Shown: positions 31,672-36,299 of the stretch, piece after piece
How positions within the stretch are numbered: position 1 is the stretch's first letter
Layout: each line of letters begins with the position of its first letter
Source: an uncultured Bacteroidota bacterium
Lineage (GTDB): Bacteria > Bacteroidota > Bacteroidia > UKL13-3
DNA: 46,566 nt
NCBI GenBank assembly: GCA_903910445.1
Contig: CAIVZR010000070.1
Span: 1-46,566, forward strand
Direction: 5' to 3'
Notes under the pieces: model-generated
Databases searched by the model: none
What the model was told of the DNA's origin: nothing
Seen by the model: only the letters and a program-made list of their open reading frames with translations
Translations under genes and position numbers: made by a program

Positions 31672-32157
31672 ATGGCTATTCGGATTTTTGTTACTGGAGG
31701 TACTTTCGATAAAGAGTATAACGAACTCACAGGCGAACTTTTCTTTAAAGATACACATATTCAGGATTTACTGCTATTAGGTCGCAGCCGCCTCGATTTA
31801 AGCATACGTACCCTCATGCTTATTGATAGTTTAGAGATGACCGACTCCGATAGAAATGTAATCGTAGAAAGTTGCAAGCGTTGCATCGAAGATAAAATTG
31901 TGATTACACACGGTACCGATACCATGACAACTACTGCAAGTGTATTGGCTCATGAAATAAAAGACAAAACAATTATACTAACAGGGGCCATGATTCCATT
32001 TAAATTTGGCAGTAGCGATGGTTTATTCAATTTAGGTAGTGCATTGGCCTTCGCTCAGAGTTTACCCCATGGTGTTTATGTTGCTATGAATGGGCGCTAT
32101 TTCAACTGGGATAGCGTTCGTAAGAATAAACAAACAGGCTTCTTCGACGAAATTTAA
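31672..32157 (+). CDS. Short (single-domain) asparaginase-like protein
   Basis: 161 residues, matching only the N-terminal catalytic domain of L-asparaginases (full enzymes have about 330). Active-site segments are present: VTGGTFDK with Thr11, and ITHGTDTMTTTASVLA with Thr82-Asp83; TGAMIPFKFGSSDG follows. The chain ends cleanly at GFFDEI, and single-domain members of this length are known in several bacteria. It is therefore more likely a complete short protein than a broken gene. Hydrolysis of asparagine or a related amide is inferred. It follows accC by 14 bases. Confidence 0.85.
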   Translation: MAIRIFVTGGTFDKEYNELTGELFFKDTHIQDLLLLGRSRLDLSIRTLMLIDSLEMTDSDRNVIVESCKRCIEDKIVITHGTDTMTTTASVLAHEIKDKTIILTGAMIPFKFGSSDGLFNLGSALAFAQSLPHGVYVAMNGRYFNWDSVRKNKQTGFFDEI

Positions 32158-33223: not shown

Positions 33224-33619
33224 ATGAAAAGCCTTCGAAATTATTTTATCATAACGTTGTTAGCATTCACTATTTTTAGTTCATGTTCTAAAAAACCCAA
33301 TAAGGTCATCGAAAAGGGTACCTGGTATGTGAGCGTATACATGGATAAAAATATTGTTGAAACATCCGACTTCGATGGTTATTTATTTGATTTCGGCAAA
33401 GACGGAACCTTAACCGTAACACTCAATACAGGGAACATAGTTAAAGGCACCTGGACTTATACCAAAAGCTCTTCAAAGTTTAAAATTTCAATTTCAGGAA
33501 CCGATAAACTGGATAAGATTAGCCGTGAATGGCTTGTTTTTACGACTACATCTAGCATCATTGAATTGAAAGAAGGTAACTCACCTGATGAAGATTATCT
33601 GCACTTTTCGAAGAAATAA
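33224..33619 (+). CDS. Small lipoprotein, lipocalin-like beta-rich domain
   Basis: A 131-residue predicted lipoprotein. The signal MKSLRNYFIITLLAFTIF ends in lipobox FSSC, followed by SKKPNK. The mature part has GTWYVSVYMDKN, FDFGKDGTLTVTL, GTWTYTKSSSKFKI and the run to DYLHFSKK, the spacing seen in lipocalin-like or META-like small beta-barrel lipoproteins of Bacteroidota. An upstream extension of the frame overlaps the CDF gene and would put the hydrophobic core inside, so ATG 33224 is used. TATCTTCG (33197-33204) is a one-mismatch -7 element. Function unknown. Confidence 0.72.
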   Translation: MKSLRNYFIITLLAFTIFSSCSKKPNKVIEKGTWYVSVYMDKNIVETSDFDGYLFDFGKDGTLTVTLNTGNIVKGTWTYTKSSSKFKISISGTDKLDKISREWLVFTTTSSIIELKEGNSPDEDYLHFSKK

Positions 33620-33632
33620 AAACACCTCATTA

Positions 33633-34166
33633 ATGCGTTTTCTACAGAATTGCCTCGCGCTTATTTGCATTTTATTGGCCTTTAATGGAATTGCCCAAAA
33701 GGTAACTCCTGTAAAATTTGACTATGCCATCTCCGACACAAGTTTTAAAGTGGGTGATACGCTAGAAATTATTGTCAATATTAAAATAGAAAATGGATGG
33801 TCTGTGTACAGCTCCGAATTCGCTGCCGATGGTCCATTGAAATTTGAATTTAAGGCAGAGAAAAGCAAAAATTTCACAGTCGCTGGCCCCCTCAAGCCCT
33901 ACAAGCCATTCATGCACTACGATGAGGTATGGGAAGCAGAGGTTAAAATATTTGAAGAGCGTGCACAATTCAGAATTCCAATTGTAATTAAAAAGAAGGG
34001 TCCTGCCTTATTTACAGCATCGTTTAGCGGACAAGCATGTAAAGAAGTCTGTGTCCCAATTTCCGATGCAGTTGCAGTAGATATTAATACACTTCCATTG
34101 GGCAGCTATCAATCGGCCGACCCGGAAGTATACAGCCATTATATTAGTATAGCGGCTCCTAAGTAG
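33633..34166 (+). CDS. Stand-alone DsbD N-terminal (DsbD-alpha-like) domain protein
   Basis: 177 residues: signal peptide (MRFLQNCLALICILLAFNGIAQ) and one periplasmic domain. The domain is clearly paralogous to the N-terminal domain of the next gene: both contain a W-[SY]-[VL]-YSSEF-x-ADGP core, PYKPF and EVKIF. The redox pair of DsbD-alpha appears as SGQACKEVCVP (Cys136, Cys140), beside Cys136 and Cys143 in the full DsbD. It could pass electrons from the DsbD membrane domain to a separate client or act as an exchange partner of DsbD-alpha; that is inference. It lies 13 bases after the lipoprotein gene and 105 bases before dsbD. Confidence 0.85.
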   Translation: MRFLQNCLALICILLAFNGIAQKVTPVKFDYAISDTSFKVGDTLEIIVNIKIENGWSVYSSEFAADGPLKFEFKAEKSKNFTVAGPLKPYKPFMHYDEVWEAEVKIFEERAQFRIPIVIKKKGPALFTASFSGQACKEVCVPISDAVAVDINTLPLGSYQSADPEVYSHYISIAAPK

Positions 34167-34235
34167 TCAAAACGATACTGCCTTAGCATTTTCATTCCAT
34201 TCTTCTTCGTTAAAGTGTGTTGTGATACCGATGTT

Positions 34236-34268
34236 ACAGATAAGTTTTCTATTTATCTGTTATATTTG
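34236..34268 (+). promoter_or_regulatory. dsbD promoter with inverted repeat
   Basis: TATATTTG (34261-34268) is a perfect -7 element whose last base is 3 bases before the dsbD ATG at 34272. Directly upstream, ACAGATAA (34236-34243) and TTATCTGT (34253-34260) form a perfect 8-bp inverted repeat with a 9-base spacer, abutting the -7 element. It could be an operator or a hairpin ending the upstream transcript. Confidence 0.55.
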
Positions 34269-34271
34269 CAC

Positions 34272-36299
34272 ATGAAATTCCATAAAATTTTATTTCTATG
34301 TAGTTTATTATTGGCTACATTTATTTCTTCAGCTCAGGTAGATCACCCAGTAGAATATAGCTATGCAATATCTAAAGCCGATTATAAGGCTGGCGATTCA
34401 GTAGATTTTATTATCAATGCTAAAATTTTAGATGGATGGTATTTGTATAGCTCCGAATTCGTTGCCGATGGTCCAATTAAGTTTACTTGCACCATTCAAA
34501 ATAGTAAAGATTTCAGTGCCGGAACCGTTCAGCCCTATAAACCTTTTGCTCATCTCGATCCTGATTGGGATAATACAGAAGTTAAAATATTTCAAAGTGT
34601 CGGACAGTTTCGAGTTCCACTTTTGGTTAACAAGGAAGGAAAAATAATCCTAAATGGAAAAATTGCATCACAATCGTGTAGTTCTGTTGAAGGCCGCTGT
34701 GTGCCAGTTGATGTGAAATTGTCTGATATAGATTTAAGTTCATTGCCTATTAGCGATTATCAGGTTGCCGATCCTGCTGTTTATGATCATTACAAGACCG
34801 GTGAAGCTCCCAAAACAGAAACCGTAACTCCTGCCGAAACCCCTGAGGATACGGATACAAAAGATGAATCGATGTGGTCATTGCTTATTACCGCCTTCTT
34901 AGCTGGACTTACGGCATTAATTACTCCTTGCGTTTTTCCAATGATACCAATGACTGTTTCCTTTTTTACAAAACAGGATAAAGGTAAAGGAGTGAAACAA
35001 GCCATGCTATTTGGACTTTCTATCATCGTTATTTATACGTTGATAGGAGTTGTATTTTCAGTAGCATTTGGTAAGAACTTCGCACAAGCATTGAGCACCC
35101 ATTGGATTCCCAATGTATTGTTCTTTGTGGTGTTTATTATTTTCGGGGTTTCATTTTTAGGAATGTTCGAAATTGTACTTCCTTCTTCTTGGGGGACTAA
35201 AATGGATCAATTAAGTGAAAAAGGTGGGGTAATCGGCATTTTCTTTATGGCCATGACTTTAGTTATTGTATCCTTCTCGTGTACAGCCCCCGTAGCAAGT
35301 TCCGTGCTCATTCTGGCATCCCAGGGTAATTTTGCACGAGCCATTCCGGCCATGCTGGCTTTCTCCTCCGCTATTGCCATACCGTTTATGCTCTTCGCTA
35401 TTTTTCCTCAATGGATGCAGAATCTTCCTAAAAGTGGGGGATGGCTTAATACCGTGAAAGTTGTACTAGGATTTATAGAAATTGCATTTGCTTTTAAATT
35501 TTTATCGGTTGCCGACCGCGTATATCACTGGCATATTCTCGATCGTGAAATTTATTTAATCATCTGGATCGTGCTTTCATTCTTGCTTGGTGTTTATTTA
35601 CTGGGCAAACTTCGATTCTCGCATGATTCACCTTCTGATACTGTTCCCGTTTCGAGATTCCTACTCTCTGTAGTTTTTTTCTGTTTCTCAATCTATATGG
35701 TTCCAGGTCTTTGGGGTGCACCATTGAAATTCCTTTCAGGATATGTTCCTCCTCAAACATCACTCGATTTCGATTTGTATTCAAGCTCAAAAATATTATT
35801 AAGTAGTATTCCAGATGATAGAGGTACAGTGAAGTATAGTGGCAAATACAAGCAGCCTTATGGAATCAAAGGATTCTTCGACTTTCAGCAAGGATTGGAT
35901 TATGCGAAGAAACATAACAAGCCATTATTTGTTGATTTCACAGGAGAAAGCTGCACCAACTGCCGTAAGATGGAAGATGGAGTTTGGATTGATGAGGATG
36001 TGATAAGCTTACTTAAGAATGAATTTGTGGTGGTATCACTATACTACGACGACAAATCATCGCTTCCTAGTGAAGAACAATATATCAGTGCTTTAGACAA
36101 AGAGTTAAAAGCAACAGTAGGTGATAAAAATCTGGATTTCCAAGTAAGTAATTTCAATAGCAATGCTGCTCCTTATTACGTGATTTTGGGCCACGATGGA
36201 ATGAAGCCATTAAATAAACCACGTGGGTTTAATGCAGATATTCCTGCATTCAAAAAGTTCCTTGAAGATGGCTTGAAAAAGTTTAAAGGGGAGAAGTAA
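34272..36299 (+). CDS. dsbD: Thiol:disulfide interchange protein DsbD
   Basis: 675 residues, moving electrons from cytoplasmic thioredoxin to periplasmic thiols (protein reduction, cytochrome c maturation). A signal peptide (MKFHKILFLCSLLLATFISSAQ) is followed by the DsbD-alpha domain (about 25-165; Cys136, Cys143) and a linker. The CcdA-like membrane domain (about 195-500) has Cys220 in LITPCVFPMIP and Cys337 in SFSCTAPVASS. The C-terminal thioredoxin-like domain has CTNC (Cys561, Cys564) in DFTGESCTNCRKMEDGVW. All three redox pairs are intact. The ATG at 34272 starts the signal peptide; a GTG 19 codons earlier would overlap the promoter and inverted repeat. Confidence 0.95.
   Translation: MKFHKILFLCSLLLATFISSAQVDHPVEYSYAISKADYKAGDSVDFIINAKILDGWYLYSSEFVADGPIKFTCTIQNSKDFSAGTVQPYKPFAHLDPDWDNTEVKIFQSVGQFRVPLLVNKEGKIILNGKIASQSCSSVEGRCVPVDVKLSDIDLSSLPISDYQVADPAVYDHYKTGEAPKTETVTPAETPEDTDTKDESMWSLLITAFLAGLTALITPCVFPMIPMTVSFFTKQDKGKGVKQAMLFGLSIIVIYTLIGVVFSVAFGKNFAQALSTHWIPNVLFFVVFIIFGVSFLGMFEIVLPSSWGTKMDQLSEKGGVIGIFFMAMTLVIVSFSCTAPVASSVLILASQGNFARAIPAMLAFSSAIAIPFMLFAIFPQWMQNLPKSGGWLNTVKVVLGFIEIAFAFKFLSVADRVYHWHILDREIYLIIWIVLSFLLGVYLLGKLRFSHDSPSDTVPVSRFLLSVVFFCFSIYMVPGLWGAPLKFLSGYVPPQTSLDFDLYSSSKILLSSIPDDRGTVKYSGKYKQPYGIKGFFDFQQGLDYAKKHNKPLFVDFTGESCTNCRKMEDGVWIDEDVISLLKNEFVVVSLYYDDKSSLPSEEQYISALDKELKATVGDKNLDFQVSNFNSNAAPYYVILGHDGMKPLNKPRGFNADIPAFKKFLEDGLKKFKGEK

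Follow-up and report, generated by a model that had tools for sequence, protein, structure and literature searches.

A stand-alone DsbD alpha domain in front of a complete DsbD

Why does a lake bacterium that encodes a full-length DsbD carry a further copy of the first domain of this protein as a gene of its own, directly in front of it? The question is raised by a locus in the window, i.e. the whole stretch of 46,566 nucleotides that was analysed (Table 1). In the following, alpha designates the DsbD_N or nDsbD domain and SA a stand-alone DsbD alpha domain. DsbD_N (PF11412) was the sole Pfam family above the cut-off in the SA of the window (45.4 bits, cut-off 25, E 1e-11), which is thus not itself a full-length DsbD. 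The DsbD encoded downstream unites alpha, transmembrane and thioredoxin domains in a single chain, with PF11412 (DsbD_N, 38.0 bits, cut-off 25, E 2e-9), PF02683 (DsbD_TM, E 8.5e-28) and PF13899 (Thioredoxin_7, E 5.4e-9) all exceeding their cut-offs. Compared with the NCBIfam model for DsbD it scored 158 bits, which is below the cut-off of 330 for that model. No curated NCBIfam family matched the SA of the window at E <= 1, and the same applies at E <= 0.01 to six other SAs.

The SA and the alpha domain of DsbD share 46% identity over query residues 9-177 (E 1.5e-44), and these two are the DsbD_N matches found at E <= 1 in the genome. The first-pass annotation had described the protein as a copy of the first domain of the downstream DsbD; the common family and the sequence identity confirm this. 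At its N-terminus the SA has a hydrophobic segment, modelled as a helix (residues 2-19), and it probably represents the DsbD alpha domain in a soluble, periplasmic form. On balance, we consider it somewhat probable that the SA is reduced in trans by the gamma domain of DsbD and forms a second periplasmic outlet, which arose by duplication on the lineage of the genus.

Table 1. Features of the SA-DsbD locus and their positions in the window.
Feature	Position	Strand	Remarks
Small predicted lipoprotein	33227..33619	+	directly upstream of the SA; no family above cut-off
SA, 177 aa	33633..34166	+	ATG start; hydrophobic N-terminal segment, DsbD_N domain, C-terminal extension
SA cap-loop segment D97-E98-V99-W100-E101	33921..33935	+	aligned by MAFFT with E. 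coli D68-E69-F70-Y71-G72
SA redox pair C136-K-E-V-C140 (CKEVC, Cx3C)	34038..34052	+	read from the sequence; Cys codons at 34038 and 34050
Full-length DsbD, 675 aa	34272..36299	+	ATG 34272 preferred; GTG 34215 also possible
DsbD alpha redox pair CSSVEGRC (Cx6C)	34677..34700	+	Cys codons at 34677 and 34698
DsbD transmembrane (beta) domain	34875..35504	+	PF02683, residues 202-411
DsbD thioredoxin-like (gamma) domain, C-terminal	35880..36068	+	PF13899, residues 537-599; contains SCTNC

Predicted fold and position of the cysteine pair

The structure of the SA was predicted from 17 aligned sequences with a pLDDT of 87.7. Foldseek searches with this model returned nDsbD or ScsB alpha domains exclusively in the top nine rows. 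In VIA-align the first 11 entries were nDsbD or ScsB (Z 9.1-11.2), and the next one was an unrelated protein (Z 7.3). At the sequence level, solved structures yielded no DsbD when the query was the SA alone; with the SA alignment as query, ScsB (E 0.12) was outranked by two kinase matches due to chance.

According to the model, a strand comprising residues 126-136 ends with C136 and a strand comprising residues 140-150 begins with C140, so that the two cysteines occupy the facing ends of neighbouring strands of a beta-hairpin. This predicted arrangement speaks against a pair that cannot meet, a possibility raised in the first-pass annotation. The model of the full-length DsbD was poor (pLDDT 60.7, 9 rows); its alpha region alone was used, for strand limits. 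Here the strands span residues 126-137 and 143-154; C136 adjoins the last residue of the first strand, and the second begins with C143. As far as these models indicate, the Cx3C of the SA can be read as the same device with a shortened turn.

Cysteine spacing and cap loop

The two cysteine motifs of the window, including the distance of seven residues in DsbD, were described correctly in the first-pass annotation, but the full-length DsbD of another genome of the genus (G020) has CTDQC. All five SAs of the genus show Cx3C, and its DsbD alphas show Cx6C in four cases and Cx3C in one. In 25 genomes from other genera of the family, a subset of the 54 with a match described below, we found Cx6C 23 times and Cx7C twice (31 alignment rows, in which six genomes occur twice; the numbers are corrected for this). 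Elsewhere, 51 rows of DsbD alphas comprise 44 with Cx4C, five with Cx3C and two with Cx6C, and the 22 rows of SAs comprise 17 with Cx4C, four with Cx3C and one without a proper pair (family f37). Cx3C is present in full-length DsbDs of the families f61, f13 and f54, one of which (f54, L093) has the exact motif CKEVC of the window SA, and in ScsB of P. mirabilis (CSNVC). In view of these occurrences in full-length DsbDs and ScsB, the idea that the different spacing indicates a different redox behaviour was rejected.

The segment DEVWE of the SA aligns with DEFYG of E. coli in three MAFFT settings, whereas HMMER shifts the aromatic residue by one; F70 of E. coli thus corresponds either to the V99 column or to the next one. 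The V99 column is occupied by V or I in the SAs of all five genomes of the genus and in 24 of the 25 genomes of other genera. The DsbD alphas of the genus have T, D or N at this position (5/5). Elsewhere in the class, N or T was found in 14/51 DsbD rows and N, T or D in 12/22 SA rows. As the column is often polar there, the change may be neutral. Judged from the aligned sequences, it is possible that the cap loop shows a division of labour between the SA and the DsbD alpha of the genus.

An alternative explanation would be dosage or redundancy, with the SA serving as an extra alpha for the same clients and no branching of the electron flow. The SA and the DsbD alpha are indeed alike in fold and core motifs, DsbD retains its own alpha in 12 of 14 SA-DsbD pairs and the constraint on the SA is lower (see below). 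Against this explanation stands the opposite divergence within the genus of the cap-loop column and the cysteine loop, an argument that is weakened by the frequent polar residues in this column elsewhere in the class. We regard it as fairly unlikely.

Occurrence of SA-DsbD pairs

The order of the window's genome consists of one family with 64 genomes, which were searched with the window SA as query (E <= 0.001). The SA-DsbD pair was found in 5/5 genomes of the genus and in 0/59 others; strongly diverged SAs might escape this search, and not all of the genomes are complete. Of these 59 genomes, 54 gave one alpha match (in G039 the frame has 242 aa and lies where the contig begins) and five gave none. 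A paralogue immediately upstream of DsbD, 46% identical in the window and found in all five genomes of the genus, is not due to chance.

The SA of the window is 96% identical to the nearest relative and just 50-52% to the other three SAs of the genus. The open frame and both cysteines are kept in all five genomes. Both observations are difficult to reconcile with a decaying duplicate that has no function, which we therefore consider very improbable. Such decay would fit the dN/dS values for the two closest genomes, 0.47 for the SA vs. 0.03 for DsbD, which are based on few changes and suggest a weaker constraint on the SA. It would also fit the SA of family f37 (L081, 2872-3378, minus strand), which is below the Pfam cut-off and seems to have lost the second cysteine.

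An evenly drawn sample of 109 Bacteroidia genomes, among them that of the window, included 88 with DsbD_N. SAs were detected in at least 14 genomes (Pfam at E <= 0.001, a lower bound) from eight families, i.e. f1, f9, f13, f19, f36, f37, f40 and f41, the window's family being among them. One further genome (G078) was left out of this count because its short ORF runs up to the end of the contig and the fused form is the one seen in its relatives. In all 14 genomes the SA is followed by an adjoining DsbD-type ORF on the same strand. These neighbours were called by our own alpha profile and a CxNCR motif; for the window, G071, G098 and G141 the DsbD was also examined with Pfam. The pairing therefore extends beyond close strains, and an alpha domain that no longer needs the membrane partner, as had also been suggested, is disfavoured by this constant linkage.

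In 12 of the 14 genomes the adjoining DsbD keeps its own alpha; none was found in the other two, which belong to f40. A split DsbD, consisting of a free alpha beside an alpha-less DsbD-type protein, was seen at all three f40 loci examined (L046, L085, L086), two of them from the 109-genome sample and the third from G355. Furthermore, at least 12 of the 109 genomes encode a DsbD with two fused alphas, ten detected by Pfam and two (G115, G116) by our own alpha profile. Among 26 loci selected for having an SA, it lies upstream of DsbD in 25 and downstream in one (L074); at L049 the neighbour is cut by the contig end. An initial search of the class, covering 395 genomes with the best matches listed, served for the choice of loci and not for counts. 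In a sample of 99 genomes of the phylum, searched with the SA profile of the genus (E <= 1e-10), the matches were full-length frames except for the window SA and one SA of f40 (G141).

Two loci showed unusual arrangements. L074 (839-3738, plus strand), from a Flavobacteriales MAG, encodes a DsbD with an alpha at each end, followed by an overlapping third, free alpha. At L036 (2266-3159, minus strand; f61) a protein of 298 aa unites an alpha and a redoxin/AhpC-TSA-like domain and so connects alpha with a partner of the thioredoxin fold; the same genome (G303) has an SA-DsbD pair.

Origin of the pair

On a tree with 89 rows, the eight rows of the genus, SAs and DsbD alphas together, form one group with a support of 100/100. 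Within it the SAs and the DsbD alphas make up two subgroups (98/86 and 96/75). A first tree with 71 rows agrees, giving 100/100 for the ten rows of the genus. The C-terminal extension motif, the pattern of which was derived from the genus's own sequences, was present in 10/10 alphas of the genus (SA and DsbD) and in 0/106 other distinct alphas compared. The tree grouping and the common extension indicate a duplication on the lineage of the genus itself. The SA-DsbD pairs of f61, f13 and f36 likewise group within their own family on the 89-row tree.

Descent from one ancient SA gene was rejected on the basis of the tree and of an AU test in which all 26 SA rows were constrained to one group (p-AU 1.1e-36). 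At least ten changes between SA and DsbD alpha are required on the 89-row tree. As the SAs are not one clade, the SA-DsbD layout probably arose repeatedly. With 129 columns the alignment is short; there are many open forks and some long branches. Gene conversion could imitate a late duplication, chiefly in f61, where the copies mix. The 89-row tree was calculated without L036, L037, L038, L041, L056, L071 and L073 (redoxin fusion, contig-split pair, near-duplicates) and without L001-L033.

Neighbouring genes and a possible promoter

The sole cysteine of the small predicted lipoprotein upstream of the SA is the lipobox-like one, and the protein is thus probably not involved in a relay between DsbD and the SA. 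It is far more variable than its surroundings: compared with G022, 99/130 aa are identical, and the values are 671/675 for DsbD and 325/327 for a nearby CDF transporter. The synonymous divergence from G022 (L056) along 33227-36299 of the window is 0.04 for the SA, 0.15 for DsbD and 0.53 for the lipoprotein. This uneven pattern might reflect recombination between lineages. Further upstream (31672-32157, plus strand) the window encodes a 161-aa protein that corresponds to the N-terminal domain of L-asparaginase alone (PF00710, E 6e-28), and a similar short ORF was found in G023 (L057, 6222-6824).

A TATATTTG element is located 3 bases before the dsbD ATG in three of the five genomes of the genus, two of these being identical in the intergenic sequence. 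In the window it is part of TATATTTGCAC (34261-34271), which abuts the ATG; the frequency of the TATATTTG motif in the window is about 0.76 per kb. TATATTTG presumably resembles the Bacteroidota -7 box, and TATATTTGCAC with TATATTTG could be the promoter of a nearly leaderless dsbD transcript. Owing to this element, SA and dsbD possibly have no common transcript.

Possibly separate promoters, and the SA being a separate protein, would also suit an SA that is independent of DsbD, either exchanging thiols with the help of another reductant or acting as an oxidant. However, the linkage of the SA to a DsbD-type gene in all sampled SA genomes and the repeated fusion of second alphas into DsbD make this explanation improbable.

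Proposed function of the SA

For the SA as a second outlet of DsbD, the electron path would lead from cytoplasmic thioredoxin to the beta domain and from there to the gamma domain of DsbD. From gamma the electrons would then go to the tethered alpha or, in trans, to the SA, which would pass them on to periplasmic thioredoxin-fold proteins, giving DsbD two outlets; the clients of the SA and of the tethered alpha are expected to be at least partly different. Reportedly, the separate domains of E. coli DsbD cooperate when expressed apart. Isolated nDsbD is contained in the solved structures 1vrs (bound to the C-terminal domain of DsbD), 1jzd (bound to DsbC) and 1z5y, according to the entry titles; a free alpha is thus able to bind partners on both sides. 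In f40, where DsbD has no alpha, the free one would have to act in trans. Taken together, the split DsbD of f40 and the complexes of isolated nDsbD suggest that a free alpha is enough.

Candidate clients in the genome are 15 Thioredoxin_8 matches (12 over the cut-off on their own) and two Cytochrom_C_asm matches. The shuttle to a dedicated client proposed in the first-pass annotation receives indirect support from the occurrence of the pairing in eight families, from the f40 arrangement and from second alphas fused elsewhere, but no dedicated client was identified. The dN/dS of the SA, the possible promoter of dsbD itself, the single alpha in 54 of 59 relatives within the order and the f37 SA count against the relay.

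In a more far-reaching reading, which we consider less likely than not, Bacteroidia would repeatedly make DsbD a branched reductase by means of second, sometimes third alphas, free or fused. The genus of the window would then have split two ancestral traits: the free alpha kept the hydrophobic cap-loop residue and shortened the cysteine hairpin, and the tethered one kept the long hairpin (4/5) and acquired a polar cap residue, each alpha having its own gating and clients. Bacteria related to that of the window seem to have evolved the same alpha doubling several times, which suggests that the DsbD electron pump often gains a second outlet. With natural systems that have multiple or split alphas, seemingly of repeated origin, it would be possible to examine directly if each alpha copy constitutes an outlet of its own.

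Comparison with known systems

In the titles and abstract starts of the open-access papers searched we met no description of a stand-alone or tandem alpha in Bacteroidota, nor one of repeated alpha doubling or a split DsbD. The domain (DsbD_N) and its partner (DsbD) are known.

The SA resembles the alpha domain of DsbD (nDsbD, PF11412) in its fold, in the cysteine pair on a beta-hairpin and, by the MAFFT alignment, in a putative cap-loop segment. It differs from nDsbD of E. coli in being a separate protein beside an intact DsbD and in having Cx3C instead of C103-x5-C109. With the N-terminal region of P. mirabilis ScsB (6c29), which we take to be a tandem Ig-fold, it shares the Cx3C and the structure (Z 11.0 over chain residues 11-140). 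This region is part of a membrane protein, whereas the SA is free.

CcmG/ResA-type proteins have a thioredoxin fold. CcdA with separate partners (ResA/CcsX) is similar to the window in combining a membrane reductase with a detached periplasmic partner; unlike the SA, the partners of CcdA are not Ig-fold alpha domains and belong, according to passages of PMC4460558, to the CcmG/ResA type. The split DsbD of f40 likewise has a free alpha adjoining a membrane reductase, but in the window DsbD keeps its own alpha.
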